Shown here: positions 5,209 to 52,106 of the stretch, piece after piece
Layout: each line of letters opens with the position of its first letter
How positions within the stretch are numbered: the first letter of the stretch is position 1
Source of the DNA: Hyphomonadaceae bacterium
GTDB lineage: Bacteria > Pseudomonadota > Alphaproteobacteria > Caulobacterales > Hyphomonadaceae
Direction: 5' to 3'
Assembly: GCA_022760335.1 (NCBI GenBank)
Contig: JALEGE010000024.1
Span: forward strand, 1-64,000
Length of the DNA stretch: 64,000 nt
Position numbers and translations under genes: made by a program
The notes under the pieces: model-generated
Seen by the model: the letters and a program-made list of their open reading frames with translations, nothing else
The model's database searches: none
What the model was told of the DNA's origin: nothing

Positions 5209-6015
5209 GGTCTGTATCCCACCCTGGATCCGTCTTCTGGAAGGCACTGTTTCACAGCCATTTCGATCGCGCAAAACCGAAGAGATCAAAGCGCGTCGAA
5301 TGCCGTTCTTCCAATTACCGCGTGTAGAGGAAGGCAGCTCTGGAATCAATCCTGATCGGGGTGATCGCAGTCTACTGCGAACTCATCTCCAGCATCGCTT
5401 GATGCTCACAGTTTGACACAATCAAAACTCAATATTCGCAGAGATTGTTGCGGTGGCGGGGGGGTTAATCTCGCGAGACTGGTGTTAGCTGTGCTGCTTA
5501 TGAGTCACCATCCTCGGCACTGTCCAGCCTCGCAAACTCAAGGGCTGCCTCCATGAGGGCATGGCGCATGTCACTGCGGCCCGACTGGTTGATCGTGCCC
5601 GTCAGGGTGAGGTTGCTTTGCGGGCAATGGAAAGTGAATGAGCCCCAATGCGATGTGTCCATGAAGGATGAAATGGTCATAGACTGAGGCACGCGTAGCG
5701 GCGAAAACGGGACATAGCGCGTTCTCGTCATCGGAAAGACCGGTGGTGCGAGGTCTCGCAAGAATTGTTAAACAGCGACCGGTTACCTGGCGGTCAGCTT
5801 TGCCGATCTGGATCATCGCAGCGCGACATGTGCCGAATCCTCTCCGCCCCCAGATGTCTCTCAGCGCCAAGAGTGGTCGAAAATTCGGCAAATGCCAATC
5901 TTCTAGCCCATTGTCTGACCTGTATTGTGCGCCACGAAACCCGACTTGGCGGTTTCTGTTGTCGCCTGCACTGATCTGATGTCTTTAAGGTCAGCTTTGA
6001 ATGGTCAAAGTCTTC
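5209..6015. other. Intergenic region without a convincing gene
   Basis: About 800 bp between the lipoprotein and the porin. Short overlapping reading frames exist on both strands (for example 87 codons at 5498-5761, minus), but none has a signal peptide, known motif, good ribosome site or convincing codon pattern, and part of that frame lies in a diverged repeat shared with 31185-31290. I see no gene I can support up to the hairpins at 6016. Confidence 0.5.
5720..5822. repeat. Diverged intergenic repeat, copy 1
   Basis: About 100 bp that aligns, with gaps, to 31185-31290. Both copies carry CGTTCTCGTC near the start, then GGTGCGAGGTCT, GCAAG and TTGT in the same order and at similar spacing, then a GTTA-CTG stretch and CCGATC. 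Identity by eye is about 65-70 percent. The nature of the element is unknown. Confidence 0.5.
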
Positions 6016-6052
6016 GCGCCCGAAGCAGGGCGCAGTTCTTCGGTGATGAAGA
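6016..6052 (+). promoter_or_regulatory. Tandem hexaloop stem-loops, candidate NasT (ANTAR) leader target
   Basis: Two adjacent perfect stem-loops, each with a six-nucleotide loop. The first is GCGCCC, loop GAAGCA, GGGCGC (6016-6033). Three nucleotides later comes TCTTC, loop GGTGAT, GAAGA (6037-6052). Two tandem stem-loops with hexanucleotide loops are the known RNA target of ANTAR antiterminators, with G at loop position 4 conserved, as seen here; position 1 is usually A but is G in both loops here. A weaker GC stem (about CCGGGC/GCCTGG, near 6067-6085) followed by a pyrimidine-rich run lies downstream and could be the attenuator. The porin, nasT and nasS follow, so this may be autogenous control by NasT. 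Confidence 0.5.
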
Positions 6053-6151
6053 TGTGAACCCGTCCGGGCCGCTGCTGCCTGGGCTTACCTTCTTCATGCT
6101 GGCTCGCCCCCAAACTGACAGCTGCGGCCAGCTCCGATCCGAGGACTGATC

Positions 6152-7384
6152 ATGTCTGCAACCAAATATCTCCGCGCCGGGCTCGTGCCGGTCGCTCTTT
6201 TGTCTACGTCCATTCTGAATGTCGCCCAAGCTGAGGAAACCGCCTCTGCCTGGGAGACGGCACTTGCCGAAACCAAGCCGATCTTCAATGCCCGCCTGCG
6301 TTATGAAGGCGTGGACCAGGACGGGCTTCCCGAGGAAGCAAGCGCGCTAACCTATCGCCTGCGCGCCGGCCTGGAGACCGGAAAGTTCCTGGACACCAAG
6401 TTTCTCGTCGAATTCGATCATATCGACGACTTTGTCGATGACTTCAATTCCACCATCAATGGCAAGACCATGTACCCGGTCGTGGCCGATCCGAATGCCA
6501 CCGAACTGAACCGCATCCAGCTCACAAACACCTCGCTGCCAGACACCACAATCACGCTCGGCCGCCAGCGCATCGGGCTCGATGATGCCCGTTTTGTCGG
6601 CAATGTCGGCTGGCGCCAGAATGAGCAGACCTTTGATGGCCTGCGCATCCAGAACACCTCGCTCGGCGACCTGAAAGTCGACTTTACCTATATCACCCAG
6701 GTCAACCGCATCTTTGGGGATGATTCCCCGATCGGCCGTTGGGACGGTGACACCTATCTCCTCAATCTCAGCCACCCGACGCCGATCGGCAAGCTGACAG
6801 GGTTCGCCTACAATGTGGATGTGGACAATGCCGGCGGTGTCTTCTCCTCACAGACCATCGGCGCACGGCTCGCCGGCAAACAGCCGGTTGGTCCCGGCGA
6901 GTTGGGCTATGCCCTGTCCTATGCGACCCAGTCCGACTATGGCTCCAGCAACCTGGACTACACCGCAGACTACTATCTCGTGGAAGGCAGCTACACTGTA
7001 GACGCCTTTACAGGCGGGCTCGGCATCGAGGTGCTCGGCGGAGATGATCAGCGCGGATTCCAGACCCCGCTTGCTACGCTGCACAAATTCCAGGGCTGGG
7101 CAGACAAGTTTTTGACCACTCCGGCCACGGGCGTGGAAGATATTTATGCAAAAGCTGGCTACAAGGTCGGGGATGTCGGCCCGCTCAGTGGCCTGAACCT
7201 CACCGCCGTCTATCATGATTTCACTGCAGACGTTGGAGGGGCGGACTACGGTAGCGAACTCAATCTCGCAGCGTCTGCAAAATGGGACTCAGTCAGGATA
7301 ACCCTGAAATTTGCGGATTATAGCGCGGATGACATCGCAACAGATACCAGCAAGTTCTGGATCCAGTTCGACTTCGCTCTCTGA
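6152..7384 (+). CDS. Outer-membrane beta-barrel porin (alginate-export-like), nitrate locus
   Basis: A 410-residue protein with a signal peptide ending near VAQAEE (residue 29), then alternating beta-strand pattern throughout: RLRYEGVDQ, TYRLRAGLETG, TLGRQRIGLDDARF, and amphipathic strands with Tyr/Phe ends up to the C-terminus FWIQFDFAL. The RLRY/GRQ pattern is that of the alginate_exp barrel family. It is followed after 19 bp by nasT, so it is probably co-expressed as the outer-membrane entry for nitrate or nitrite. The C-terminal residue is Leu where porins usually end in Phe or Trp, with Phe two positions earlier. Confidence 0.75.
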   Translation: MSATKYLRAGLVPVALLSTSILNVAQAEETASAWETALAETKPIFNARLRYEGVDQDGLPEEASALTYRLRAGLETGKFLDTKFLVEFDHIDDFVDDFNSTINGKTMYPVVADPNATELNRIQLTNTSLPDTTITLGRQRIGLDDARFVGNVGWRQNEQTFDGLRIQNTSLGDLKVDFTYITQVNRIFGDDSPIGRWDGDTYLLNLSHPTPIGKLTGFAYNVDVDNAGGVFSSQTIGARLAGKQPVGPGELGYALSYATQSDYGSSNLDYTADYYLVEGSYTVDAFTGGLGIEVLGGDDQRGFQTPLATLHKFQGWADKFLTTPATGVEDIYAKAGYKVGDVGPLSGLNLTAVYHDFTADVGGADYGSELNLAASAKWDSVRITLKFADYSADDIATDTSKFWIQFDFAL

Positions 7385-7403
7385 AGAGCAGGCACCCGAA
7401 CTG

Positions 7404-8036
7404 ATGTCTGAGCAGGGCGTGGTCGTAAAGGCCGCGCCCCTTTGCGTTTTGCTGATTGATGAAGACCCCGAGCGCGCACGCCAGGTCGAAGACGGGCTGA
7501 TCGCCAATGCCGTTGTCCACACCGCGACCGCCACCCATGGCCGGGTCCTGCTCGATCTCATCGCCCGGATCAGCCCCGATGTGATCATCATGGATTGCAA
7601 TTCCCCCGATCGCGACACGATCGAAAGCCTGCGTCTGGTCGCCCAGTCCAATCCCAAGCCCATCGTCATGTTTGTGGAGGAAGAAGGCGGCGACCGGATG
7701 CACGACGCTATTGAGGCGGGCGTCAGCGCCTATGTGATCGACGGGCTGAAGCCCAAACGCGTCCAGCCGCTGATCGACACGGCCATTGCTCGCTTCCGGC
7801 ATATGGATGGCCTGCGCAATGAGCTGAAGAAGACCAAGGAAGACCTCGCCGCCCGCAAGGTGATCGAACGCGCCAAGGGGCTCCTGATGCAGCATCATGG
7901 CATGACGGAGGATCAGGCCTTTTCCTCAATGCGCACCATGTCCCAACAACAGGGCAAGCCACTCAAGGATGTCGCGGAAAACGTGCTGACCATTGTCGGC
8001 ATGCTGTCCGGCAAGACCGGAAAGGCAGACGAGTGA
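7404..8036 (+). CDS. nasT: NasT-type ANTAR transcription antiterminator
   Basis: A 210-residue protein with a receiver-like domain (LLIDEDPERAR near residue 20, VIIMDCNSPD near residue 60) and a C-terminal ANTAR RNA-binding domain with the hallmark ARKVIERAKGLLMQHHGMTEDQAF. NasT binds tandem hairpins in mRNA leaders and lets transcription of nitrate/nitrite reductase genes continue; without nitrate, NasS holds it inactive. I chose the ATG at 7404, just after the porin stop; the open frame extends further upstream but only inside the porin gene. The stop shares one base with the nasS start (TGATG). Candidate targets are the stem-loops at 6016-6052 and in the nrtA leader. Confidence 0.92.
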   Translation: MSEQGVVVKAAPLCVLLIDEDPERARQVEDGLIANAVVHTATATHGRVLLDLIARISPDVIIMDCNSPDRDTIESLRLVAQSNPKPIVMFVEEEGGDRMHDAIEAGVSAYVIDGLKPKRVQPLIDTAIARFRHMDGLRNELKKTKEDLAARKVIERAKGLLMQHHGMTEDQAFSSMRTMSQQQGKPLKDVAENVLTIVGMLSGKTGKADE

Positions 8037-9316
8037 TGGCCACTTCCCTAACCCTCGGTTTCGCCCAACTCACCGATTGCGCACCGCTCGCGGTTGCGAA
8101 GGAACGCGGCGCTTTTACCGCGCATGGTTTGGATGTGACGCTGAAGCGTTTCGTCTCCTGGGCCGCCATGCGCGATGCGCTCGGGACTGGCGCGATTGAC
8201 GGCGCGCACATGCTCTCACCTATGGTCGTGGCCTCGGCGGCCGGCGTCGGGCCGTTTCCACGTGAATTTACTTCCGCCTTCACACTGAACCTCAATGGCA
8301 ATGCAATCACGGTATCGACGGCCCTTTTTGAGGCCATGGCGGGGATGGCGCCGGACACCATCACGCGTCGTCCGCTGTCTGCCTACGCGCTGAAAATGGT
8401 CATCGACCGGCGTAAGGAAGATGGGCTGGAGCCGCTCACTTTCGCTCATGTCTATCCCCATTCCATGCATGCGCTGGAATTGCGCTATTGGCTGGCAGCG
8501 GCCGGGATCGACCCGATGCGTGACCTCAAACTGGTTGTCGTGCCCCCGTCGCTGGTGGTGGATGCGCTCGCGTCGGGTCAGATCGATGGGTATTGCGTTG
8601 GCGAGCCCTGGAACAATGCCGCCGTCGTGGCGGGCATCGGGCGCACCCTCATCACCTCCGGAGAGATTTGGTCCAACGGGCCGGAAAAGGTGCTCGCCGT
8701 GCGCGAAAGCTGGGCCAGCGCCAATCATGAGACGCATCTGAAATTGCTCGCGGCACTATCGGAAACCTGCGCCTGGCTCGATGAAATGGACAACCGGATC
8801 ACGGCGGCGCAGATCATTTCCACCCCGGATTATGTCAATGCGCCCTTCGATGAAGTGGTCGGATCGCTCACCGGCAAGAACCGCCAGACCGGCGGTGAGT
8901 TGCGGGTCGACATGCCAGACTTCAACGTGTTCCACCGCTATGCCGCAAACTTCCCCTGGCGCTCGCATGCCAAATGGATTCTCTCCCAGATGATCCGTTG
9001 GGGCGAGGCACCCGCCGATATCGACACAGGCGCCGTGGCGAAGGCCGCCTTCCGGCCTGACATTTATTGCGAGGCGGTGAAACCTCTCGGCGTTGCCTGT
9101 CCAGGCGCGGATGAGAAACTGGAAGGCGTGCATTCTCATGCCTGGCTTCTCAAGGATGCAAGTGAAGCCGTCGCCATGGGCCCTGACCTGTTCCTCGATC
9201 GGCGCGTGTTCGATCCGTCCAATCTCGATGGCTATATTTCCAGCTTCTCGGTGCGCGATCAGGAAAGCCGCCTCGGCGCGCTTGATACCAGCCAGGTCAG
9301 TAGCCTCGCGAAATAG
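8036..9316 (+). CDS. nasS: NasS-type nitrate sensor (NrtA-like cytoplasmic protein)
   Basis: A 426-residue NrtA/CmpA-family nitrate-binding domain without a signal peptide: it begins directly with LTLGFAQLTDCAPLAVAKERGAF. The lack of an export signal and the immediate coupling to nasT identify it as the sensor NasS, which sequesters NasT until nitrate binds. Sequence features shared with the periplasmic NrtA in this window include [38 protein letters not shown] and PDFNVFHRY. A GTG three bases earlier is an alternative start. The gene ends the porin-nasT-nasS unit; a hairpin lies 49 bp downstream. Confidence 0.9.
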   Translation: MATSLTLGFAQLTDCAPLAVAKERGAFTAHGLDVTLKRFVSWAAMRDALGTGAIDGAHMLSPMVVASAAGVGPFPREFTSAFTLNLNGNAITVSTALFEAMAGMAPDTITRRPLSAYALKMVIDRRKEDGLEPLTFAHVYPHSMHALELRYWLAAAGIDPMRDLKLVVVPPSLVVDALASGQIDGYCVGEPWNNAAVVAGIGRTLITSGEIWSNGPEKVLAVRESWASANHETHLKLLAALSETCAWLDEMDNRITAAQIISTPDYVNAPFDEVVGSLTGKNRQTGGELRVDMPDFNVFHRYAANFPWRSHAKWILSQMIRWGEAPADIDTGAVAKAAFRPDIYCEAVKPLGVACPGADEKLEGVHSHAWLLKDASEAVAMGPDLFLDRRVFDPSNLDGYISSFSVRDQESRLGALDTSQVSSLAK

Positions 9317-9494: not shown

Positions 9495-10247
9495 TCAGAC
9501 CCGCTCGGCGACGGGCAGTGCCGCCTCAGCCTCGGCAGCGCTCAGCGGATAGCGGATAAAGAGGATGGCCGGGTTCTTCACGCCCTGCTCGCGGGCATCG
9601 AGCGCCAACCGGTCCAGCCGCGAACGCGTCCAGCGGCAATCGGGCTTGCCGACATTTTCGATCCAGTCAGCGGGCAGATGGCCGGGAATGCCTCGCGCCA
9701 TCAGGGCGGTCTGGATGCGCCAGGCCTGCGCCACGCTCATATAGAAGGCGACGCACACGCCGGGCTTCACGAGCTCGGCCCAGTCCGGCTCCTTGTCCTT
9801 TTCCGCAGATCGCCCTGTGGTGACGACAAAACTCTGCAGCTCAGCGCGTTCGGTCACTGTGATCGCACTCTCGGCAGCAGCAGCCAGCGCGGCGGTGACA
9901 CCGGGCACAATCTCGATTTCCGCGTCGAGGGAAACGGCGACGGCAATCTCCTCTGCGGCCCGGCCAAAGATCATCGGATCACCGGATTTCAGGCGGGCCA
10001 CACGGCGGCCCTCCGCAAGGGCCTCGCGCAGGAGCGTGTTGATATCGGCCTGCTGGCGCCCGCCATCGGTGCACTGCTTGCCGACATAACAAAGCTCCGC
10101 AGAAGGGCTCGCATGTCCCAACACCTCCGGGTCGACCAGCCTGTCATAGAGGATGAGATCGGCCTCGGCGATGCGTTGCACCGCACGAAGGGTGAGCAGG
10201 TCCGCCGCGCCAGGACCACATCCGATAAGGGAGAGTTTTCCAGTCAT
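9495..10247 (-). CDS. cobA: Uroporphyrinogen-III C-methyltransferase (SUMT)
   Basis: A 250-residue protein with the SUMT signature: LIGCGPGAADLLTLRAVQ at the N-terminus, LILYDRLVD, then RLKSGDPMIFGRAAEE and EIVPGVTAA (S-adenosylmethionine site). It methylates uroporphyrinogen III to precorrin-2, the precursor of siroheme needed by the siroheme nitrite reductase NirB encoded in the same operon. The start at 10247 lies 5 bp after the nasA stop. An open frame extends upstream inside nasA but lacks SUMT character. Last gene of the minus-strand nitrate operon. The CysG dehydrogenase/ferrochelatase domain is absent, so siroheme completion must be encoded elsewhere. Confidence 0.92.
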   Translation of the reverse strand: MTGKLSLIGCGPGAADLLTLRAVQRIAEADLILYDRLVDPEVLGHASPSAELCYVGKQCTDGGRQQADINTLLREALAEGRRVARLKSGDPMIFGRAAEEIAVAVSLDAEIEIVPGVTAALAAAAESAITVTERAELQSFVVTTGRSAEKDKEPDWAELVKPGVCVAFYMSVAQAWRIQTALMARGIPGHLPADWIENVGKPDCRWTRSRLDRLALDAREQGVKNPAILFIRYPLSAAEAEAALPVAERV

Positions 10248-10251
10248 GATC

Positions 10252-12948
10252 CTACTCCGCCGCGATGGTTTGGGATTGGGCGTGCTCGGCCTTGAAGCGC
10301 TCAAGCATGGCGCGGATTTCAGGCTTGCAGGAGCCGCAATTGGTGCCCGCGCCCGTCGCCGCGCCAATGCCATCCACGCTGAGCGCGCCGGCATGGACCG
10401 CCTCCTGAATGGCGGCGCTGCCGACGCCCAGACAGGAACAGATGATCTTGCCGGCGGACTTGCCCATGGCCGGGCGCCCCGCCAGCAAGCCGATCCGCGT
10501 TTCGCCATCAATGGGCAGGTCCAGCAGGCCCGCCAGCCAGGTCCGGTCGGCCTCAACCGGGCCATTGGAAGAGGCAATGATGGCAGCTTCAAGCCGGTCG
10601 CCCTGAACCAGGGCGCGCCCAAGCTGGTCGTGCCGGCTCGAAAGCTGGAGCGCCTCGTCCGCCGGGATCGCCTTGCCGAGCCAGTCTGACATTTCCGCCG
10701 AGCCCGCCAGTTCGTAGCGCCAGCCCGATCCGGCCTTGGCAACGGCCCAATAGTCCAGTTCGCTCAGAAGCTCTGGCGTCAGCGCCTCGCGCGTCACCAT
10801 GAAGCCAAACCAGGCCGCTTTCAGGGGCGCGATGAAGACGGTCCCATGCTTGGACTCCGGCTGGCCCGAAACAGGATCCGTATTCGGCGCGACAAGGGCA
10901 TCGACCCTGCCGCTGGAGCTGTAACGGTCGGTCCAGTGCATGGGCGCGAACACCGTGCCTGGTTGCGCACGATCAGTAATGAGCACGCGCAAGACGGCGC
11001 GGCCATAGGCATTGGTCAATTCGGCCAGACTGGCAGGTGCCAGGCCGATCTTGTCCGCATCCTTCGGGTGCACTTCCAGAAATGGCTCGGCAATATGGGC
11101 AGACAACCGGGTCGATTTCCCGGTGCGCGTCATGGTGTGCCAATGGTCGCGCACGCGGCCTGTATTCAGGATGAAGGGCGTGGCCGGGCCGGGCTGCGAA
11201 GCCGCCGGGCGGTAGGGCGTCGCGACGAAGCGGGCGCGCCGGTCTGGCGTATAGAACTGGCCGTCTGCGAAGAAGCGGTGATGATCCCCAGTTCCTGCAC
11301 CGGGGCGCGCGCGGCCCGCAGGCTTCGGCCACTGATATGGCTCCAGCGCGTCATAGTCTGCTTTACTGATCTCGGCATCCGCGCCGATATCGAAGTCACG
11401 GCTGTCATTGTTTTCGAAAGCCGAGAGGGCGGCATATTCGCGATAGATGTCTGCGGGCGAGCCGAACTCGAACCCGTCAAAGCCCATGCGCCGGGCGACC
11501 TCGCAGACCGCCTGCCAATCATGGCGCGCCTCGCCGGGGGCCTTCAGGAAACTGCGCTGTCGGGAGATGCGCCGTTCGGAGTTTGTCACCGTGCCGGTCT
11601 TTTCGCCCCAGCCCGTGGCCGGCAGGGCGATATTGGCGAGTTTCACCGTGTCGGAATTGGCCACCACTTCGGAGACCACCACAAGCGGACAGGCCGCGAT
11701 GGCCGCCTTCACGCGGTCGGCATCGGGCAGCGAGACAACCGGATTGGTCGCCATGATCCAGAGCGCCTTGACCTCCCCGCGATGAACCGCCTCGAACAGG
11801 TCCACCGCTTTCAGGCCGGGCTCTGTCGCCATGTTCGGCGCGTTCCAGAAGCGCTTCACCCTGTCGACATCTTCCGGCGCGAAATCCATATGCGCGGCGA
11901 GCTGGTTGGCGAGCCCGCCGACCTCGCGCCCGCCCATGGCATTGGGTTGGCCGGTGACGGAGAAAGGTCCACAGCCCGGCTTGCCGATGCGGCCCGTCAC
12001 CAGATGGCAATTGAGGATGGCATTGACCTTGTCTGAGCCCGCCGAGGACTGGTTCACGCCCTGGGAATAGATGGTGACAGTGCGCGGGGTCTCTGCGAAC
12101 CAGCCGAAGAATTTTGCAATGTCCCCAGCGGCGATGCCGGTGTCGCGTGCGAGTTCTGCCCGGCTCAACGGTGCTATGGCGGCGAGCGCTTCATCCAGGC
12201 CGCGTGTATATCTCTCGACAAAGGCAACATCGCCGGCTTCGGAGCCTGCGAGATGCGCGAAGAGGGCGTTGAACAAGAGGACATCCGCACCCGGACGGAT
12301 CGGCAGGTGCAGGTCTGCGGCATCGGTCGTGGCGGTCTTGCGCGGGTCTATGATGACCAGCCGTGTACCCCGCTTTTTCCGGGCGGCGAGGATACGGCTG
12401 TGCAGGATCGGGTGGCACCAGGCGAGATTGCTGCCGACCATGACGATGAGGTCGGCTTCTTCCAAGTCTTCATAACAGCCCGGCACCGTGTCGGCCCCAA
12501 AGGCGCGCTTGTGCCCCACCACGGAGGAGGCCATGCAGAGCCGGGAATTGGTGTCGATATTGGCCGAGCCGATAAAGCCCTTCATCAGCTTGTTGGCGAC
12601 ATAATAATCCTCGGTGAGGATCTGCCCGGAAACATAGAGCGCCACACTGTCGGGGCCATGCTCGGCAATGGTCTCGGAGAACCCCTTGGCGATCTGATCC
12701 AGCGCGATGTCCCAGTCGGCTCGCTTTCCGTCCACGGAGGGATACAGCAGTCTTTCCTCAAGGCTGAGCGTTTCGCCCAGCGCCGAGCCCTTCGAGCAGA
12801 GCTTGCCGAAATTGGAGGGATGTGCCGGATCACCGCGCACGCTGGCGCTTTCTCCGCTCACATCCGGCGTGACGCGCACGCCGCAGCCCACGCCACAATA
12901 GGGGCAGGTGGTCGCCGTTTCGGCCGGCCGGTTGTTGCGCGCGCCCAC
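10252..12948 (-). CDS. nasA: Assimilatory nitrate reductase, catalytic subunit
   Basis: An 898-residue molybdopterin oxidoreductase. The N-terminal CPYCGVGCG with Cys15, Cys18, Cys22 and Cys51 (LCSKG) binds a [4Fe-4S] cluster. The body has the bis-MGD domains (SRLCMASSVVGHKRAFGAD, YSQGVNQSSAGSDK, GQPNAMGGREVGGLAN). The C-terminal 50-60 residues are a BFD-like [2Fe-2S] domain (ICSCLGVG ... GTNCGSCKPEI), the usual ending of bacterial NasA/NarB-type assimilatory enzymes, which reduce nitrate to nitrite in the cytoplasm. The start is GTG at 12948, 6 bp after nirD. There is no Tat signal, which fits an assimilatory rather than periplasmic enzyme. Confidence 0.95.
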   Translation of the reverse strand: MGARNNRPAETATTCPYCGVGCGVRVTPDVSGESASVRGDPAHPSNFGKLCSKGSALGETLSLEERLLYPSVDGKRADWDIALDQIAKGFSETIAEHGPDSVALYVSGQILTEDYYVANKLMKGFIGSANIDTNSRLCMASSVVGHKRAFGADTVPGCYEDLEEADLIVMVGSNLAWCHPILHSRILAARKKRGTRLVIIDPRKTATTDAADLHLPIRPGADVLLFNALFAHLAGSEAGDVAFVERYTRGLDEALAAIAPLSRAELARDTGIAAGDIAKFFGWFAETPRTVTIYSQGVNQSSAGSDKVNAILNCHLVTGRIGKPGCGPFSVTGQPNAMGGREVGGLANQLAAHMDFAPEDVDRVKRFWNAPNMATEPGLKAVDLFEAVHRGEVKALWIMATNPVVSLPDADRVKAAIAACPLVVVSEVVANSDTVKLANIALPATGWGEKTGTVTNSERRISRQRSFLKAPGEARHDWQAVCEVARRMGFDGFEFGSPADIYREYAALSAFENNDSRDFDIGADAEISKADYDALEPYQWPKPAGRARPGAGTGDHHRFFADGQFYTPDRRARFVATPYRPAASQPGPATPFILNTGRVRDHWHTMTRTGKSTRLSAHIAEPFLEVHPKDADKIGLAPASLAELTNAYGRAVLRVLITDRAQPGTVFAPMHWTDRYSSSGRVDALVAPNTDPVSGQPESKHGTVFIAPLKAAWFGFMVTREALTPELLSELDYWAVAKAGSGWRYELAGSAEMSDWLGKAIPADEALQLSSRHDQLGRALVQGDRLEAAIIASSNGPVEADRTWLAGLLDLPIDGETRIGLLAGRPAMGKSAGKIICSCLGVGSAAIQEAVHAGALSVDGIGAATGAGTNCGSCKPEIRAMLERFKAEHAQSQTIAAE

Positions 12949-12954
12949 AGCCCG

Positions 12955-13287
12955 TCAGCCTGCACTGGCTTTGAGAAAGACGCGCTGATTCTCGCGAACT
13001 TCCACCGGATAGGTGCGTACACATCCTGTGTCGGCGCCGCGCGCCTGCCCGGTTTCCAGATCGATGATCAGGGCGTGCAGCGGGCAGGTCACGCCTGTGT
13101 CATGCACAATGCCTTCGCTCAGCGGTCCGCCCTTGTGCGGGCAGCGATTGTTGATCGCATAGATGGTATTGCTCGCGGTACGGAAGATGGCGATTTCATC
13201 TTCGTCCAGTTTCACACGGCGCGCCCCGCGCAGGGGGATATCGGCTAGCCCGCACAGGTCGATCCAGGTTTCGGTCGTCATGCTCAT
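12955..13287 (-). CDS. nirD: Nitrite reductase small subunit (Rieske-type)
   Basis: A 110-residue NirD with an intact Rieske motif: Cys49-Pro-His51 (CPHKGGPLSEG) and Cys68-x2-His71 (CPLHAL), so it should hold a [2Fe-2S] cluster. It partners NirB in six-electron reduction of nitrite to ammonium. It lies 3 bp after nirB and 6 bp before nasA. A second ATG at residue 3 is an alternative start. Confidence 0.93.
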   Translation of the reverse strand: MSMTTETWIDLCGLADIPLRGARRVKLDEDEIAIFRTASNTIYAINNRCPHKGGPLSEGIVHDTGVTCPLHALIIDLETGQARGADTGCVRTYPVEVRENQRVFLKASAG

Positions 13288-13290
13288 CGC

Positions 13291-15729
13291 CTATTTCGCC
13301 AGTTCGAGGGGTTGGAATTCATGCGCATCCGTCCCGCCTGTGGCGCGCTCCGCCCACGGATCGGATTGCGAGAATTGTTGGGAATACCGGAACCGTTCCA
13401 CGAGCGCAGCACGGTTTTCTGCGTCCTCGACAATCTGCTCACGGACTTTATCGATGCCGACACGGGCCGACCATTTGTAGATGCGCTCCAGATAGAAGCC
13501 CCGCTCGCGATAGAGCTGCAGGATGGCGGTGCACATCTCGATGGCTTCGTCTTCGGTCGTCACCTTGGTCAGGAGATCAGTGGCGCGCACTTCCATGCCC
13601 GCCGCGCCAGCAAAGTGGATCTCATAGCCGCTATCGACACAGACGACGCCGATATCCTTGCAGGTGGCCTCGGCGCAATTGCGCGGGCAACCGGATACGG
13701 CCAGCTTCACCTTGTGCGGCGTCCATGAGCCCCACATCAGCTTTTCCAGCTTGATGCCGAGTCCGGTGGAATCCTGCGTGCCCACGCGGCACCAGTCCGA
13801 GCCAACGCAGGTCTTCACCGTGCGCAGCGACTTGCCATAAGCATGGCCGGAGACCATGCCGGCGGCGTTGAGATCGGCCCAGACGGCGGGCAGGTCTTCC
13901 TTTTTCACGCCCAGCATATCGATGCGCTGGCCGCCAGTATATTTCACCGTCGGGATCTTGAACTTGTCGACCACATCGGCGATGGCGCGCAGTTCATCCG
14001 CGCTCGTCACCCCGCCCCAGGCGCGCGGGACGACGGAATAAGTGCCGTCCTTCTGGATATTGGCGTGGACGCGCTCATTGATGAAGCGGGACTGGCCATC
14101 ATCGGTGTATTCCCCCGGCCAGGCGGCGAGCAGGTAATAGTTCAGCGCCGGACGGCATTTGGCGCAGCCGCAGGAGGTCTTCCAGCCCAGCTCCTGCATC
14201 ACGGCCGGGATGGATTTCAGCTCCTGAGAGAGGATCAGGCGGCGCACATCATCATGGCCAAGATCGGTGCAGCCGCACACGGTTTTCTTGGCGGGGGCAA
14301 CGAAGGCATCGCCGAGCTTGTAGGCGAGCAGGCTCTCTACCAGGCCGGTACAGGTGCCGCAGGAGGAAGATGCCTTGGTGCAGGCGCGCACGCCTTCGAG
14401 ATCGGCCAGGCCGTTCTCATCGATTGCGGTGAGGATCTGACCCTTTGATACGCCGTTACAGCCGCAGATCTCTGCCTCATCCGGCAAGGCTGCAACGGCC
14501 GCCATAGGGTCCAGCGGGGTCCCTCCGGCATAGGACTGGCCGAAGATGAGCGTGGCGCGCTCATCATCGGCGATAGGCTCGCCGGTCTTGATCTTGTCGA
14601 AGAACCAGGCCCCGTCGGAGGTCTCGCCATAGAGCACCGCACCGATCAGGCAGCCATCCTTGAGCACAAGGCGCTTGTAGATGCCGCGCGCCGGGTCGCG
14701 GAACACCACTTCGTCGCGATCCTCACCATCGGCGAAGTCGCCGGCGGAGTAGAGGTCCACGCCGGTCACCTTCAGCTTGGTGGCGGTTTCTGTGTGAATG
14801 AAAGCCGGTTCTGTGTCGCCAGTCAGCGCCTGGGCGCAGATCTTGGCTTGCTCAAAGAGCGGCGCGACCAGCCCGTAGCAATTGCCCTCGAATTCGACGC
14901 ATTCCCCGATGGAAGAGATGGCCGGGTCGGAGGTCTGCATCCGGGCATCGACCTTTATGCCGCGTCCGACATCCAGCCCCGCTTGCTTGCCGACAGCCAC
15001 ATTCGGTCGAATGCCGACGGCCATAACCACGAGGCTTGCCGGGATCTCGGTGCCATCGTCGAGCCGCACACCTTCGACCTTGCCGTCACCGAAGATTTCC
15101 TTCGAGTTGACACCGGTGCGGATGTCGATGCCGCGCGTGGAAAGCTCCTTTTCGAGCAGGTAGCCCGCTGAGGGGTCGAGCTGGCGTTCCATCAGGGTTG
15201 GCGCCAGGTGGAGGACGGTCACGTCCATGCCGCGCAGGCGCAGACCCGCCGCCGCCTCAAGCCCGAGTAGGCCGCCGCCAATGACCACAGCGCGCGCGCC
15301 CGGCTCGCAGGCCGCGATCATCGCGTCGGTATCGTCGGCATCACGATAGGCCAGCACGCCGGGCAGATCATGGCCCGGCAGGGGGATGATGAAGGGGTTG
15401 GACCCGGTCGCGATGACAAGGCGGTCATAGGCCACCTCGCCCTTCTCGCCGATCACGACCTTGCGGTCGCGATCAATATCCACAACCCGCTCCCCGAACC
15501 GGCAGGCGACCTTGTTCTCGGCATACCAGGCGTCGTCATGGGTGACGATTTCGCCATAGCTCTTCTCGCCCGACAGCACCGGCGAGAGCATGATGCGGTT
15601 ATAGGTCCCGCGCGGTTCGGCATTGAACAGGGTCACCTCATAGGCGGCTGGGTCCACCTTGAAGAGGTGTTCCAGCAAGCGCCCGGCGGCCATGCCGGCA
15701 CCGATAATGACAAGCTTTTGTTGGGCCAT
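13291..15729 (-). CDS. nirB: NAD(P)H-nitrite reductase large subunit
   Basis: An 812-residue NirB. The N-terminal FAD/NAD(P)H domain begins MAQQKLVIIGAGMAAGRLL and carries a second dinucleotide motif near VVIGGGLLGLEAA. Two BFD-like [2Fe-2S] segments follow (EICGCNGVSKGQILTAI and CGCTDLGHDDVRRL). The C-terminal ferredoxin-like half has the siroheme/[4Fe-4S] cysteines CVGSDWC and SGCPRNCAEATCKD. It reduces nitrite to ammonium with electrons from NAD(P)H. I prefer the ATG at 15729; a frame 21 bp longer overlaps the GAF gene. It is encoded with its cofactor gene cobA in one operon. Confidence 0.94.
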   Translation of the reverse strand: MAQQKLVIIGAGMAAGRLLEHLFKVDPAAYEVTLFNAEPRGTYNRIMLSPVLSGEKSYGEIVTHDDAWYAENKVACRFGERVVDIDRDRKVVIGEKGEVAYDRLVIATGSNPFIIPLPGHDLPGVLAYRDADDTDAMIAACEPGARAVVIGGGLLGLEAAAGLRLRGMDVTVLHLAPTLMERQLDPSAGYLLEKELSTRGIDIRTGVNSKEIFGDGKVEGVRLDDGTEIPASLVVMAVGIRPNVAVGKQAGLDVGRGIKVDARMQTSDPAISSIGECVEFEGNCYGLVAPLFEQAKICAQALTGDTEPAFIHTETATKLKVTGVDLYSAGDFADGEDRDEVVFRDPARGIYKRLVLKDGCLIGAVLYGETSDGAWFFDKIKTGEPIADDERATLIFGQSYAGGTPLDPMAAVAALPDEAEICGCNGVSKGQILTAIDENGLADLEGVRACTKASSSCGTCTGLVESLLAYKLGDAFVAPAKKTVCGCTDLGHDDVRRLILSQELKSIPAVMQELGWKTSCGCAKCRPALNYYLLAAWPGEYTDDGQSRFINERVHANIQKDGTYSVVPRAWGGVTSADELRAIADVVDKFKIPTVKYTGGQRIDMLGVKKEDLPAVWADLNAAGMVSGHAYGKSLRTVKTCVGSDWCRVGTQDSTGLGIKLEKLMWGSWTPHKVKLAVSGCPRNCAEATCKDIGVVCVDSGYEIHFAGAAGMEVRATDLLTKVTTEDEAIEMCTAILQLYRERGFYLERIYKWSARVGIDKVREQIVEDAENRAALVERFRYSQQFSQSDPWAERATGGTDAHEFQPLELAK

Positions 15730-15743
15730 TGTGCCGGCTCCCC

Positions 15744-16673
15744 TCAGCAATACCAGGCGACGACGTGCGACAGCTCGCCGGCCTGATGGATTGGCAGGGC
15801 AACAACGGACGCGTAGCCGGCTGTTTCCACGCTGGAGCTTGAAACCACCGGCAGCCCTGTGCCGAGGGCGCGCCCGATCACGCCGCGAAAGGCATAGACC
15901 TTTTGCGGCGCCTCATCGTCCCAGAGCTTGCCGTCTCTTTCGCAGATGCCATCGGCGAGGATCGCCGCACCGGACGAGCCGACCTTGGCCGCGCGCGCAT
16001 CCCAGATCTCAAACCGCCGCGCGATGGGTGTGCCTCTGGCCGAGAGCAGCGTCAGGACGATGTCCTGGTCGCCCGGCACGGGAACCGGCAGGCCAAGCCC
16101 GGTGGTCAGGCCCGCCCGGCCCGCACTGTCAGCGCGCACGAAGCGATAGCCGGAGCCGAGATCGCGGAACAGCATTGGCGTGGAAGCTGCCCAGACACCG
16201 CCCGGCAGGCCCTGCCCGCGCGGGAAATGAGTATGCTGGGAGACCCATTCGAAATGCTTGGCCGCGCCATAATAGCCCTCTTGCAGCAGCATCATGCCAT
16301 TGGTGTCGGCCCAGACTTCGATCGCGCCCATGCGGGTCTCATCATCGCTGCACAGGACGACCAGGACAGCCTTGAGTTCATCGCCAGCGAAGACGGGGAT
16401 CGCGACACCGGAGGTAAGTCCGGCCTGCTTGGCCGCATCCTGGCGTTTGAAATAGGAGCCATCCATGGATTTGAGCACAATCGGCCTGGCATCAGCCCAG
16501 GCCTTGCCGGGCAGGCCTTCGCCCTTCTCGAAGCTTTCCTGGCGGGAGGCTTCGGCAAACTCGTCAAGCGAGCCGTAATTGCCCTCGCCGAGGACGAGCT
16601 TGCCATCTTCGGGCACCCAGACTTCCGAGACAGAAATGAAGGTACGGGTGGTTGCTTCAACTGCGGTATCCAT
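15744..16673 (-). CDS. Tandem GAF-domain protein in nitrate operon, function unknown
   Basis: A 309-residue soluble protein with two visibly related repeats. Around residues 19-60 it has EVWVPEDGKLVLGEGNYG followed by GEGLPGKAW, and around residues 118-165 EVWADTNGMMLLQEGYYG followed by GQGLPGGVW. Each is followed by an Ala/Gly-rich segment leading to a hydrophobic strand (GLTSGVAIPVF; GLTTGLGLPVPV). This GEGLPGxxW pattern is that of GAF-type ligand-binding domains. A third, weaker unit may form the C-terminus. The start overlaps the ATPase stop by one base, so it is translated from the nitrate operon. It could sense a nitrogen compound, redox state or a nucleotide and act on the transporter or reductase. 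I know no standard gene name for it. Confidence 0.7.
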   Translation of the reverse strand: MDTAVEATTRTFISVSEVWVPEDGKLVLGEGNYGSLDEFAEASRQESFEKGEGLPGKAWADARPIVLKSMDGSYFKRQDAAKQAGLTSGVAIPVFAGDELKAVLVVLCSDDETRMGAIEVWADTNGMMLLQEGYYGAAKHFEWVSQHTHFPRGQGLPGGVWAASTPMLFRDLGSGYRFVRADSAGRAGLTTGLGLPVPVPGDQDIVLTLLSARGTPIARRFEIWDARAAKVGSSGAAILADGICERDGKLWDDEAPQKVYAFRGVIGRALGTGLPVVSSSSVETAGYASVVALPIHQAGELSHVVAWYC

Positions 16674-18385
16674 CAGGCCGCCTCCGTCTCTGTCTTGGTG
16701 TCAGGGTCAGGCTCTGCGGGCGTTTTGTGTGCGCCCTTTTCATACTCTTCGAGAAAATTGAGGACCTGCTCGCGATAGAGATAATAGTCGGGGTGTTCGA
16801 GCAGGGCCTTGCGGGTGCGCGGGCGCGGAATGTCGATTTCCATCACCTTGCCGATGCGGGCATTGGGGCCATTGGTCATCATGATCACGCGGTCAGCCAG
16901 CAGGATGGCCTCATCGACATCATGGGTCACGCAAGCGGCCGTCACCTGGGTGCGCTGCCAGACTTCCATCAACACTTCCTGCAGCTCCCAGCGCGTCAGG
17001 CTGTCGAGCATGCCGAAGGGCTCATCAAGCAGGAGGAGCTTGGGCGAGAGCGCGAAAGCGCGGGCGATGCCGACACGCTGGCGCATGCCGTTGGAGAGCT
17101 CGGCGGCGAGCTTGTCCATCGCGTCGCCCAGCCCGACCTTGTGCAGATAGTATTCTACCACCTGCTCACGCTCGGCGCGCGTTGCGTCCGGGTAGACCCG
17201 GTCGACCCCCACGGCAACATTCTGTTTCGCCGTCAGCCAGGGGAAGAGGGATGGGGCCTGAAAGACCACGGCGCGCTCAGGGCCGGCGGTCGCGACTTCC
17301 TTATTGTCGAGGATGATCCCGCCGCGGCTCACCTCATTGAGGCCTGCCGTCATGGTCAGCACGGTAGACTTTCCGCACCCGGAATGGCCGATGATCGAGA
17401 CAAACTCTCCCTTCTTCACCTTGATGTCGAAGCCTTCGACCACGGTGAGTGGCCCCTTCGGCGTGGGATAAACCTTGCTGACATCGGAATATTCCAGATA
17501 GCGCTCTTCATTCATGCCCGAGGTTTCAGACGCCTGGCGGTAAGCCTTCGGCTTGCCCAGCGTGATCGGGGTCACGTCCGGCAGGGGCGGCTCGACCTGG
17601 GCGCGCTTCTTGGCCACGCCGACATCCATCAGATAGGCCGTCACATCCCGGCGTAGCGTCTTGTAGCCCTCATCATGGTTCATCGCAGTGCGCTCGCGCG
17701 GGCGCGGCAGGTCCACTTTGAAGGAGGGACCAAACGTGGCGTTCGGACCCGGATTGAGCGGGATGATCCGGTCGGCCAGCAGGATGGCTTCGTCCACATC
17801 ATTGGTGATCAGCACCACCGTTTTTCGGTCCTGTTCCCAGATCGAGGTGATCTCGTCCTGCAGATTGGCACGCGTCAGAGCGTCGAGCGCCGAGAGCGGC
17901 TCATCAAGCAGCAGCACTTTCGGGTCCATGGCAAGCGAGCGGGCCACCGCCACACGCTGGCGCATGCCGCCTGAAAGTTCGGCCGGGCGCCGGTCAACGG
18001 CATGGCTGAGGCTCACCATGTCGATATATTTCTGCGCCCGGCCGTTCCGCGCGGCCTTGCTTTCGCCGGGAAACACAGCGTCCACAGCCAGGCGGATATT
18101 CTCCTTCACCGTCATCCAGGGCATCAGGGAATAGGACTGGAAGCAGACGGCGCGGTCCGGCGCGGGACCTTCCACCGCCTCGCCCTTGAAGAGCACTTCG
18201 CCCTTATCAGGGAATTCGAGGCCGGCCATCAGGTTGATCAGGGTCGATTTGCCCGAGCCGGAAAAACCGACAATCGCAACGAATTCGCCCTCTTCGACCG
18301 CGAGATCGATATCGCTCAGGACGTCCACACGTTCAGCATCTTCACCGAACCATTTGGACACATTCTTCAGTTCAAGCAGTGCCAT
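16673..18385 (-). CDS. Nitrate ABC transporter, fused double ATPase (NrtC/NrtD-type)
   Basis: A 570-residue protein with two complete ABC ATPase domains in tandem. Domain 1 (about 1-255) has Walker A GFSGSGKST, signature LSGGMRQRVAVARSLA and Walker B VLLLDEPLSALD. Domain 2 (about 290-550) has Walker A GHSGCGKST, signature LSNGMRQRVGIARAFA and Walker B LLLLDEPFGMLD. In cyanobacteria NrtC and NrtD are separate subunits, with NrtC carrying an NrtA-like domain; here both ATPases are joined and there is no extra solute-binding domain. It energises nitrate/nitrite import with NrtB and NrtA. It follows nrtB by 12 bp and overlaps the GAF gene by 1 bp. Confidence 0.92.
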   Translation of the reverse strand: MALLELKNVSKWFGEDAERVDVLSDIDLAVEEGEFVAIVGFSGSGKSTLINLMAGLEFPDKGEVLFKGEAVEGPAPDRAVCFQSYSLMPWMTVKENIRLAVDAVFPGESKAARNGRAQKYIDMVSLSHAVDRRPAELSGGMRQRVAVARSLAMDPKVLLLDEPLSALDALTRANLQDEITSIWEQDRKTVVLITNDVDEAILLADRIIPLNPGPNATFGPSFKVDLPRPRERTAMNHDEGYKTLRRDVTAYLMDVGVAKKRAQVEPPLPDVTPITLGKPKAYRQASETSGMNEERYLEYSDVSKVYPTPKGPLTVVEGFDIKVKKGEFVSIIGHSGCGKSTVLTMTAGLNEVSRGGIILDNKEVATAGPERAVVFQAPSLFPWLTAKQNVAVGVDRVYPDATRAEREQVVEYYLHKVGLGDAMDKLAAELSNGMRQRVGIARAFALSPKLLLLDEPFGMLDSLTRWELQEVLMEVWQRTQVTAACVTHDVDEAILLADRVIMMTNGPNARIGKVMEIDIPRPRTRKALLEHPDYYLYREQVLNFLEEYEKGAHKTPAEPDPDTKTETEAA

Positions 18386-18397
18386 TTCAGCCTCCCC

Positions 18398-19534
18398 TCA
18401 GCGTGTTGCGGTGTGGGTGAACATGGTCTGCAGGGCGAACATCACACGATCGAGCAGGAAGCCGATAATGCCGATGGTGAGCACTGCAACGATGATCTTG
18501 GCGAGCGACTGGGAAGACCCGTTCTGGAACTCATCCCAGACGAATTTCCCGAGGCCGGGGTTCTGCGCGAGCATTTCCGCCGCGATTAGCACCATCCAGC
18601 CCACGCCCAGCGACAAGCGCATGCCGGTGAAGATCAGCGGCAGGGCCGAAGGCAGGATCAGCTTGGTGATCTGCGTACTCGGCTTCAGCTTCAGCACCTT
18701 GCCGACATTGACCAGATCCTTGTCGACAGAGGCCACGCCCAGCGCGGTGTTGATCAGCGTCGGCCAGAGCGAGCACAGCGTCACCGTGATCGCCGAGGTG
18801 AGGAAGGACTTGGAAATCCCGGAGTCGGTGGCCACAGTCGCGGAGACGACCATTGTCACGATGGGCAGCCAGGCCAGCGGCGAGACCGGCTTGAAGATCT
18901 GGATCAGCGGGTTGAAGGCCGCATTCATCGCTGTGGACATGCCCATCAGGATGCCGAGCGGCGCAGCGATGACCACAGCCAGGAAGAAGCCGAAGAACAC
19001 GGTCTGCAGGCTGGTCCAGATCTGCTGGTAATAGGTCGATTTGCCGGTATAGGACGCGCTTGCCACTTCATCGCCGCGGCCGGCGGCAATCAGAGCATCA
19101 TTGCGGGCCGCCTGGCGCTCATAAAAGGCATCAGCGCGCTCCATTTCCTGGGCATGATCCGCATGCAGCACCTGGGCCTGCTCCCAGACCTCAACTGGTC
19201 CCGGAATGGCGCCGAGTGAGGTCTTCACCTGCGGAGCCAGGACGCCCCAGGCCCCCAGGAAAACCAGAATGGCGATCACCGGGATAAGCAGGCGCTCAGT
19301 CAGGAGCGGCAGGTTGCGTTTGGGGCTGTCGCCTGCTGCCATCATGAGAAGCGGCGTTACCCATGAGAGGGCGAAGACATCGAGGAATTTCGATGCACGA
19401 TTGATGAGCGAGAAGATCTTTTCCTGGCGTTCCGCCTTGGCGGCGGAGGCGGCGGTCGCTTCGGCCTCAGTGGGTTCAGTCACCGGGCCTGCACCCGTGG
19501 GTTCATCGACCTTTTTCAAAGCAGTATTTCCCAT
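18398..19534 (-). CDS. nrtB: Nitrate ABC transporter permease
   Basis: A 378-residue BPD-type permease. There is a charged N-terminal tail with an Ala/Glu-rich stretch, an early membrane segment around LLIPVIAILVFLGAWGVLAP, a long periplasmic insert (about residues 105-165: LHADHAQEMERADAFYERQ), and then the permease core with the EAA-type loop (AEMLAQNPGLGKFVWDEFQ). It belongs to the SsuC/NrtB group for nitrate, taurine and bicarbonate. I chose the ATG at 19534; the open frame upstream reads through the nrtA-nrtB gap without a good start. Inner-membrane partner of NrtA and the double ATPase. Confidence 0.9.
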   Translation of the reverse strand: MGNTALKKVDEPTGAGPVTEPTEAEATAASAAKAERQEKIFSLINRASKFLDVFALSWVTPLLMMAAGDSPKRNLPLLTERLLIPVIAILVFLGAWGVLAPQVKTSLGAIPGPVEVWEQAQVLHADHAQEMERADAFYERQAARNDALIAAGRGDEVASASYTGKSTYYQQIWTSLQTVFFGFFLAVVIAAPLGILMGMSTAMNAAFNPLIQIFKPVSPLAWLPIVTMVVSATVATDSGISKSFLTSAITVTLCSLWPTLINTALGVASVDKDLVNVGKVLKLKPSTQITKLILPSALPLIFTGMRLSLGVGWMVLIAAEMLAQNPGLGKFVWDEFQNGSSQSLAKIIVAVLTIGIIGFLLDRVMFALQTMFTHTATR

Positions 19535-19607
19535 CTTGTCAGACTCCGATGGTTCGAGATTGGAGGGAGATGGGCCGGCGCTCTGCCGGCCCAAACAGAC
19601 CATCAGG

Positions 19608-21071
19608 TCAGTCGTTCACAACGGCGCCAGAGGACACGGTTTGCGTGCCTTTCAGGCCGATGGTGAGACTGTCGAGATAGGCGTTCGGCGCACGGCCATC
19701 ATAGGTGATGCCGTCGATGAACTCGGCCGTAGCCGGCTTGTAGCCATCGGTCTCCCAGGGGAAATCGGCTTCATCGGCGAGGCCATCTTCGACCAGCGAG
19801 CGCGCCGCATCGAGATAGATGTCCGGGCGGTAAACCTCGCGCGCCGTGGCATCATACCAGGCATCGTCCTTGGCTTCGGCAATCTGGCCCCAGCGGCGCA
19901 TCTGGGTGAGATACCAGACCGCGTCGGAATAGTAGGGATAGGTCGCGTTATAGCGGAAGAAGACGTTGAAATCGGGCACGTCGCGCTTGTCGCCGCGCTC
20001 ATATTCGAAGGTGCCTGTCATCGAGTTGGCGATCACCTCGGCATCCGCGCCGACATATTCAGAGCGGGCCAGGATCTCCACGGCCTCTTCGCGATTGGCG
20101 TTGTCGTTCTCGTCCAGCCAGATCGCCGCGCGGATCAGGGCGCGGGTGACGGCCTTGGTCGTGACCGGGTTTTCCTCGGCGAAGTCGGCATTGATACCGA
20201 ACACCTTTTCCGGATTGTCCTTCCAGATTTCATAGTCGGTGATCACCGGCACGCCGATGCCCTTGAACACGGCTTGCTGGTTCCACGGCTCGCCAACGCA
20301 GTAGCCATAAATAGTGCCGGCTTCGAGCGTGGCGGGCATTTGCGGCGGCGGTGTCACCGAGAGCAGCGCATCAGCTTCGATCTGGCCGGACACATCATCA
20401 GGCGAGTAGAATCCGGGATGGATATCGCCGGCTGCCAGCCAGTAGCGCAGCTCGTAATTGTGGGTCGAGACCGGGAACACCATGCCCATATTGAAAGGCT
20501 TGCCTTCAGCGGTGTACTGATCGACCACCGGCTTGAGCGCCTCGGCGCTGATCGGGTGCACCGGGCGGCCATCTTCCATGGTCGGAATGTTCGGCTTCAT
20601 GGCCTCCCAGACCTCGTTGGACACGGTAATGCCGTTGCCGTTGAGATCCATGGAGAAGGGCGTGACGATATGGGCTTCGGTGCCGTAGCCGATCGTGGCC
20701 GCCAGCGGCTGACCGGCCAGCATGTGGGCGCCGTCCAGTTCGCCATCGATCACGCGGTCGAGCAGGACTTTCCAGTTCGCCTGCGGTTCCAGCGTGACAT
20801 AGAGGCCCTCATCCTCGAAGAAGCCTTTCTCATAGGCAATGGCGAGCGGCGCCATGTCGGTGAGCTTGATGAAGCCGAATTTCAGTTCGGTCTTCTCAAG
20901 GCCTTCCATGGGAATGATGATCGGTGTTGCCGAGGCGCTCGGGGTGTCGGTGGCCGGGGCTTCCGGTCCGCTGCCGCCACATCCGGAGAGGGCGAGCGCA
21001 ACCAGGGCGACAGAGCCGCCCAGGAGGGAACGACGGGAAAAGGGTGTCTTGGTGTTTGACAGAAGGGTCAT
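19608..21071 (-). CDS. nrtA: Nitrate-binding lipoprotein of ABC transporter
   Basis: A 487-residue NrtA-family solute-binding protein. The N-terminus has a twin-arginine motif (SRRSLLGG) followed by a hydrophobic stretch and the lipobox ALSGC, so it is probably Tat-exported and lipid-anchored. The mature part begins with a low-complexity Pro/Ala/Thr linker, then the nitrate-binding domain ([65 protein letters not shown]). It is the first gene of the minus-strand operon nrtA-nrtB-nrtCD-gaf-nirB-nirD-nasA-cobA. Its leader carries hairpins and an NtrC-type site, described separately. Confidence 0.93.
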
Positions 21072-21175
21072 GTGTTTCGGTCCGCGATGCTGTGCAGCGC
21101 CAGTTGGCGCGTGCTGTGAAAAACTTTCTGGAACGGATCTGGCGTTGAGAGCAGCCAGTCGCTCGACACTCGAAA

Positions 21176-21218
21176 GTCCTTCGGCGGACGTCGATATGAC
21201 CTATGACGACATCGTCAT
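21176..21218 (-). promoter_or_regulatory. nrtA leader stem-loops, candidate NasT target
   Basis: On the minus strand, about 105-150 nt before the nrtA ATG, two stem-loops can form. The first is ATGAC, loop GATGTC, GTCAT (part of a 16-bp palindrome on the plus strand, ATGACGACATCGTCAT, 21203-21218). The second is GTCC, loop GCCGAA, GGAC (21176-21189). Both have six-nucleotide loops with G at position 4, as in the hairpins before the porin. The stems are short and loop position 1 is G rather than the usual A. The palindrome could instead be a protein operator. Confidence 0.35.
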
Positions 21219-40950: not shown

Positions 40951-42321
40951 ATGATGCTTCGACACTGCTTGCCGCATGGCACCGTCATGGCTGCAATCTG
41001 GGGATTGGCGGCATGCGCCGCCAGTCCTGTATCAACGCAAGGAAACCTGGCTGCACCACCCGTGCAGGATGCAGCCATAAAGGCTGACGAAACCGCACCG
41101 GAAGCGCCTGACCGGGCGGTTTCCGATGTGGTCTGGTCTGCACACGATGCGGCGATCACACTGGACAGCCATCTCGACACTCCGATGCTTCTGGAGTTGC
41201 CCGGTTTCGATATCACTGAGCGCCATGATCCCCTGCGCGATTACTCCCAAGTAGATCTGCCTCGCATGATAGAGGGCGGCCTGGATGGCGGCTTCTGGGT
41301 GATCTACACACCGCAAGGCCCGCTGAGCGAGACCGGCTATAAGGCCGCGCGCAATGCCGCGCTGATGCGAGCTGTCGCCATACAGCGTATGCTGGCAGCG
41401 TATCCGGAGCATTTCGAATTGGCGTTGAGCCCACAAGATGCCGAGCGCATTGAAGAGGCGGGCAAACGGATTGTCTTTCAGAGTATCGAGAACTCCTATC
41501 CCCTCGGCGAGGATCTCTCGCTTCTCGATACGTTTTATGCGCTTGGCGTTCGCATGCTGGGACCTGTGCATTTTGCCAACAATCAGTTCGCTGACAGCGC
41601 GACCGACATAAAAGGCGCAACCTGGGACGGCCTGTCTCCGCTTGGCGAGGAGCTTGTGCGAAAGGCCAACCGGATGGGAATCATTCTGGATGCCAGCCAT
41701 GCGAGCGATGCGACGTTCGATGACATGATCGAGCTGTCTGGCGCACCGATCATATTGTCTCATTCAGGCGCCAAGGCGGTATTCGATCATCCGCGCAATA
41801 TCGATGATGCGCGTCTCATACAGCTGGCGGAGGCTGGCGGCGTGATCCAGATGAATGCGCTCGGTGCCTATCTGAAGGCCCTGCAGCAGGAGCCTGCACG
41901 TCAGGAGGCCTATCGCGAGCTTTTTCAGTCCTTCGCCAATATCTCCTCCATGACGGAGGAAGAGTATACTGCTCTGTTGGAAAAACGCCGCGAGATAGAT
42001 GCCCGGTTTCCCGCCGATATGGCTGATTTCGAGGACTATATGGACCACTTCTTACATGTCCTGGACCTGATCGGACCGGAGCATGTCGGCGTGGGGGCTG
42101 ACTGGGATGGCGGCGGTGGCGTCGTCGGTATGCGCGATATTGCGGCATTCCCGATGCTTACAGAGCGCCTTCTTTCAGAAGGCTACAGTAGTGATGAAAT
42201 TGAGCTGATATGGGGCGGTAATTTGTTGCGTGTGCTTGGCGAGGTCCAGGCATATGCGGCTGAACTAGCCGTTGCCGAAGCGGCAGAAGATATCGATTCG
42301 GAGGCTGGCGATGCTGATTGA
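40951..42321 (+). CDS. Membrane dipeptidase (peptidase family M19), lipoprotein
   Basis: A 456-residue protein with a lipoprotein-type signal (WGLAACAAS). The M19 renal-dipeptidase domain shows its zinc ligands: HxD in TLDSHLDTP, Glu in FQSIENSYPLG, His in ILDASHAS and His in ILSHSGAK, plus the late GVGADWDGGGG segment. M19 enzymes cleave dipeptides, including those with a C-terminal D-residue or dehydro-residue and Cys-Gly. It starts 7 bp after the receptor stop and overlaps the permease by 11 bp, so it processes the likely ligand of that receptor. Confidence 0.9.
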   Translation: MMLRHCLPHGTVMAAIWGLAACAASPVSTQGNLAAPPVQDAAIKADETAPEAPDRAVSDVVWSAHDAAITLDSHLDTPMLLELPGFDITERHDPLRDYSQVDLPRMIEGGLDGGFWVIYTPQGPLSETGYKAARNAALMRAVAIQRMLAAYPEHFELALSPQDAERIEEAGKRIVFQSIENSYPLGEDLSLLDTFYALGVRMLGPVHFANNQFADSATDIKGATWDGLSPLGEELVRKANRMGIILDASHASDATFDDMIELSGAPIILSHSGAKAVFDHPRNIDDARLIQLAEAGGVIQMNALGAYLKALQQEPARQEAYRELFQSFANISSMTEEEYTALLEKRREIDARFPADMADFEDYMDHFLHVLDLIGPEHVGVGADWDGGGGVVGMRDIAAFPMLTERLLSEGYSSDEIELIWGGNLLRVLGEVQAYAAELAVAEAAEDIDSEAGDAD

Positions 42322-51852: not shown

Positions 51853-51901
51853 TGTCTGGGAGTTCAAGAGGGTTGACAAAGCCTGACCTCAGGCGTAAAC
51901 A
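51850..51901 (+). promoter_or_regulatory. Promoter overlapping a guide target with AAG PAM
   Basis: The 32-nt target defined by the seed match covers 51850-51881. It is preceded by AAG (51847-51849), the preferred type I-E PAM in E. coli. Target positions 1-14 match the spacer-like segment perfectly; later positions do not. A perfect -35 box TTGACA lies inside the target (51873-51878), and 17 bp further is TAAACA (51896-51901) as a -10. Cascade bound here would block RNA polymerase. The partial match favours binding without Cas3 cleavage. Confidence 0.65.
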
Positions 51902-51904
51902 AAA

Positions 51905-52092: not shown

Positions 52093-52106
52093 CAACTAAC
52101 ACTCTC

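Follow-up and report, generated by a model that had tools for sequence, protein, structure and literature searches.

The porin-nasT-nasS genes of this member of the Hyphomonadaceae are preceded by two tandem hexaloop hairpins that are, with high probability, the elements bound by NasT in an antitermination leader; NasT would antiterminate both the nitrate operon and porin-nasT-nasS, and hence control itself. In the window (the whole stretch of 64,000 nucleotides that was analysed), hairpin A (6016-6033, + strand; GCGCCC-GAAGCA-GGGCGC) consists of six perfect pairs and hairpin B (6037-6052, + strand; TCTTC-GGTGAT-GAAGA) of five; both loops carry G at positions 1 and 4 (G1 and G4), and the hairpins are separated by the three nucleotides AGT (6034-6036). 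A sequence-only reading had placed these perfect stems, their loops and their spacing correctly to the base, and had noted G at loop position 4 and G rather than A at position 1. A descriptor of two hexaloop hairpins with GNNGNN loops, a C-G closing pair and a spacing of 3-15 matched the window three times (the porin leader at 6016-6052, the nrtA leader, and 42085-42124), compared with 0.23 matches per window in dinucleotide shuffles. Hairpins A and B are genuine and conserved, and well beyond what chance would produce.

The gene context is that of a NasS-NasT system. An outer-membrane porin-like gene (6152-7384, + strand; weak sub-threshold Pfam match to Alginate_exp) is followed by nasT (7311-8036, + strand; receiver and ANTAR domains, Pfam ANTAR 5e-21, start codon uncertain) and by nasS, encoding an NrtA-like nitrate sensor (8033-9316, + strand; NMT1_2 7e-79), and the three genes overlap in sequence one after another. 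An ANTAR protein thus lies beside an NrtA-like sensor, with linked genes for nitrate uptake and reduction in the nrtA-nrtB-nrtCD-GAF-nirB-nirD-nasA-cobA operon (9495-21071, - strand), which starts at 21071. The order of porin-nasT-nasS facing the nitrate operon is kept in Henriciella, Ponticaulis, Hyphomonas and Hirschia. The GAF-domain-matching protein encoded within the operon between nrtCD and nirB (15744-16673, - strand) is kept at this place in L031 and L035, with no counterpart detected at that position in L032 and L034. A sigma-70 promoter was not recognised, and a search for NtrC sites gave matches at chance level only.

In form, the leader resembles the ANTAR-target RNAs of the eutP, nasF and amiE leaders: a pair of stem-loops, each with three or more base pairs and a six-base loop carrying G4 (GAAGCA and GGTGAT), precedes a stem of attenuator type, and the genome encodes an ANTAR protein. 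It differs from them in having G1 in both loops, a C-G closing pair throughout, a 3-nt spacer and possibly a third hairpin. As ANTAR RNAs in publications carry A1 and G4 (PMC3369931, PMC8164766), the earlier assignment to the form of an ANTAR RNA target holds for the two hexaloop stems with G4 and fails for the A1 of the consensus, and because of this missing A1 the porin leader is described here as a variant and not as a canonical member. Judged by its sequence features, this ANTAR-like variant very probably works like an ANTAR target. Rfam scans returned no relevant family at either gathering or relaxed thresholds.

The hairpin pair is conserved in relatives, and its absence there was one of the outcomes that the sequence-only reading had named as evidence against itself. 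Both A and B are kept in seven leaders, namely those of the window, L045, L046 (Henriciella pelagia), L047-L049 (Ponticaulis-type) and L050 (Hyphomonas CY54), with a nearly constant A-B spacing and with G4 wherever both hairpins are present. Stem A occurs among these as GCGCCC/GGGCGC, GCACCC/GGGTGC, GCATTC/GAGTGC and GCCTTC/GAAGGC, so that across Henriciella, Ponticaulis and Hyphomonas three pairs are changed on both sides while 100% of cells remain paired, compared with 40-62% when the pairing is slid by 1-3 columns; this test rests on five distinct rows and has modest power. The stem of hairpin B is invariant in the seven leaders and shows no covariation. A covariance model built from the leaders of four relatives, with the window left out, found 6016-6051 as its single strong match in the genome (45.9 bits, E 3e-8; next match 20.2), part of its strength being plain sequence conservation. 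Elsewhere the element is looser: the pair is more widely spaced in Hirschia SP140 and Hyphomonas ih12, as in the L051 porin leader with TCCGCC-ATTGAA-GGCGGA and GCCC-GATGAT-GGGC separated by 15 nt, and the leaders of L034 and L052 hold a partial element only.

A further hexaloop hairpin, absent from the sequence-only reading, lies 5 nt upstream of hairpin A (5995-6010, + strand; CTTTG-AATGGT-CAAAG; loop A1 and G4, closing pair G-C). The spacers of 3 nt between A and B and of 5 nt between the upstream hairpin and A compare with 5-12 nt in eut leaders and 2-25 nt accepted in a later survey of ANTAR RNAs (PMC3369931, PMC8164766), and in the eutP leader of E. faecalis shortening of the spacer to 3 nt damaged induction (PMC3369931). 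Perhaps the working NasT target is the upstream hairpin together with A, or an array of all three, with B serving mainly as the attenuator switch. The A1 and G4 of the AATGGT loop and its eut-like distance from A speak for this arrangement, as do the Hirschia and ih12 leaders, in which an A/G-loop hairpin stands beside a GATG-loop hairpin with no third, and the leader of a porin homologue in L141, where hexaloop hairpins form an array exceeding two. Yet the upstream hairpin is clean only in the window, L045 and L046; Ponticaulis and Hyphomonas CY54 keep A and B while the upstream element is not a clean hexaloop, and its G-C closing pair departs from the C-G of every other site here; this alternative appears rather unlikely. 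In the L141 leader, three tandem AATGGC hairpins are followed by an AGCGAT hairpin and a T-run terminator, and arrays of more than two hexaloop hairpins appear plausible from such sequences.

The link to NasT comes from the nitrate operon. The nrtA leader carries an equivalent pair (21218-21176, - strand; ATGAC-GATGTC-GTCAT, 13 nt, GTCC-GCCGAA-GGAC) that is missing from the earlier note, again with G1 and G4 in both loops. This pair is found in all ten nrtA leaders compared (the window and nine relatives, from genomes with this NasT type), always with G1 and G4, and its stems vary as CGCGGT/GCCGCG, GCAGT/GCTGC, GCAGC/GCTGT and TGTGAC/GTCACA. A model built from four relatives finds this pair once in the genome with 62 bits, the next match scoring 21.3; the best weaker match (L172), where a dihydrolipoamide dehydrogenase-like gene begins, was taken as chance. 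NasT binds the nasA leader RNA in Paracoccus (PMC3795266), and operons of the nrtA-nirBD-nasA kind are under NasT control (PMC3795266, PMC5424462). Because its loops are common to the leader of this kind of operon, the porin leader is tied to NasT. Neither model recovered the site of the other leader, since sequence and spacing outweigh the loops in both; the two sites were therefore compared by the loop descriptor. The porin and nrtA leaders were modelled separately, as automatic joint alignment mis-registered the loops.

The same recurrence bears on the idea that the hairpins serve the processing or stability of the porin mRNA, or form a DNA palindrome site, unlinked to NasT. Stem A is indeed palindromic as DNA, but G1, G4 and the C-G closing pair recur before nrtA, at an operon of a kind known to be under NasT control, and almost nowhere else in the window, and the loops hold conserved positions while the stems covary, which makes such a role very improbable.

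How the leader might act is suggested by its predicted folds. The attenuator-like stem that had been reported after the hairpins is present at 6062-6069/6077-6084 (+ strand; GTCCGGGC/GCCTGGGC, loop CGCTGCT, two G-T pairs). In a competing fold (6046-6097, + strand), ATGAAGA at 6046-6052 pairs with TCTTCAT at 6091-6097 around this stem, so that hairpin B is disrupted in the most stable fold of the window leader, which is 6.6 kcal/mol better than the fold with B enforced. The corresponding advantage is 4.9-7.1 in Ponticaulis-type leaders and 1.9 in L045, and there is none in L046 and L050, where hairpin B is inside the best fold; mutual exclusion of hairpin B and the downstream fold is thus, as far as the modelled folds go, not general. 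In the nrtA leader (21118-21182, - strand), GAAGGACTTTC pairs with GAAAGTTTTTC in a fold that overlaps the second hairpin. This pairing appears in the folds of the window and L109, L100 has a like fold with an altered UUUUG/CAAAA version, and L108 has the same pairing potential with a different best fold.

Alternatively, NasT could act through the leader on translation or on Rho-dependent termination, with no intrinsic terminator involved. In the window the U tract after the attenuator is poor and terminator prediction did not pick it up, L046 and L050 lack a competing fold, and a predicted terminator is missing in most actinobacterial ANTAR RNAs (PMC8164766). Against these points, L045 and Ponticaulis show terminator-like stems with T runs immediately downstream of hairpin B, and the leader lies some 100 nt ahead of the start codon of the porin gene, a long way from the ribosome site; we regard this mode as improbable. 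Antitermination by the leader is likely in the light of the predicted folds, with some room for another mode; G1, the 3-nt spacer, the poor U tract, the folds of L046 and L050, the invariant stem B and the different spacing in Hirschia count against the reading of the leader as a NasT antitermination target.

Hexaloop pairs also occur at a second ANTAR locus of the window. An ANTAR-domain gene (47983-48630, - strand) lies directly before a gene for a TonB-dependent receptor (44972-47632, - strand), and between them is a hexaloop pair (47836-47798, - strand; GTTC-AACGGC-GAAC, 9 nt, GGCTC-ATTGAG-GGGCC), each loop having A1 and G4. Across Hyphomonadaceae the two genes stay together (L036, L040-L044, L089-L097), and hexaloop pairs lie 173-182 nt before the receptor gene in L043, L089-L091, L093 and L097, so that the receptor looks like another ANTAR-controlled uptake gene on these sequence grounds. 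Adjoining the second ANTAR gene are type I CRISPR-Cas-like genes (49226-54247, + strand) for a Cas3-like helicase and Cse1/Cse2-like proteins, as read from their translations only.

G1 is the rule in the porin and nrtA leaders of this clade, and it coincides with an altered NasT. In EutV (PDB 6WSH, 6WW6), G4 stacks on Tyr164, A1 is uncontacted, M172A abolishes RNA binding and Y164A costs 55-fold (PMC8934654). When the clade NasT is aligned to EutV, the equivalents of the G4-contacting residues (R142, K149, E160 and an aromatic residue at 164) are kept, but the canonical contacts Tyr164 and Met172 are replaced by Phe and Gln (PMC8934654). The ten NasTs with Gln172 form one clade (support 100/96), and all other NasTs read here have Met at this position. 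Hexaloop pairs with G4 in both loops were counted in 300-base leaders with position 1 left free: Gln172 genomes gave GG 14, AG 4 and AA 0 (expected GG 0.1), three of the four AG cases including the upstream AATGGT hairpin, and Met172 genomes gave AA 10, AG 6, GA 3 and GG 2 (expected AA 0.2, GG 0.7). Close relatives with Met172 and A1 loops include Hellea, Hyphomonas ih12 (nrtA), G224 and a Rhodospirillaceae MAG.

Two simple rules do not survive these comparisons. That Phe164 goes with G1 is excluded by Hellea (Phe164, Met172, A1 loops), and a strict rule that Met172 means A1 is excluded by G1 loops in L156, L057 and some TonB leaders. The porin leader of L156, from a genome with a Met172 NasT, has G1 and G4 in its loops GCCGAT and GATGAA and is an exception to the co-change, and the ih12 porin leader is also G1-looped despite Met172. 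A causal tie between residue 172 and loop position 1 is at most tentative, because there is a single evolutionary change on each side, several of the leaders are near copies and G1 occurs in some Met172 genomes. It is conceivable, though we lean slightly against it, that a Hyphomonadaceae NasT branch switched its hexaloop recognition, with Met172 changing to Gln together with A1 to G1 in both target loops, which would make them an ANTAR-RNA pair that is natural and perhaps orthogonal, and that this NasT is connected to its own operon and to the porin. In Met172 genomes, too, porin homologues have hexaloop pairs in front of them (Hellea L055, Rhodospirillaceae MAG L196, and L141), and these sequences support porin control by NasT.

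In the proposed antitermination mechanism, transcription would start upstream of the hairpins. Without nitrate, NasS would hold NasT, the nascent leader would fold into the attenuator using the 3' arm of hairpin B, and little porin-nasT-nasS would be produced. With nitrate, free NasT would bind the hexaloops of A and B, and perhaps also the upstream one, hairpin B would stay formed, and transcription would enter porin, nasT and nasS. As the same NasT would act on the nrtA leader, nitrate would bring about outer-membrane passage, expression of the assimilation operon and more of its regulator. The earlier suggestion that NasT controls its own operon and the porin is supported by the position of the leader, the pair conserved in relatives and the equivalent pair before nrtA.

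Like the NasS-NasT systems of nas operons in Paracoccus denitrificans, Bradyrhizobium and others, the system described here has nasT-nasS near nitrate transport and reduction genes and hairpins in the leader of the structural operon. A literature search, with most subscription journals outside its reach, found no paper on clade-wide G1 loops with Gln172, nor on a NasT-type leader before nasTS. Searches for ANTAR RNAs in publications assume A1 and G4, and target groups like this one may be missed. In this clade, moreover, nature provides a test case for the function of an ANTAR domain that lacks the methionine found to be essential in EutV. Finally, while nasTS of P. denitrificans is under NtrBC control (PMC5424462), nasTS and the porin here lie behind a NasT-type leader, which suggests that in these organisms a nitrate regulator and an outer-membrane pore share an antitermination leader on which the regulator itself would act.
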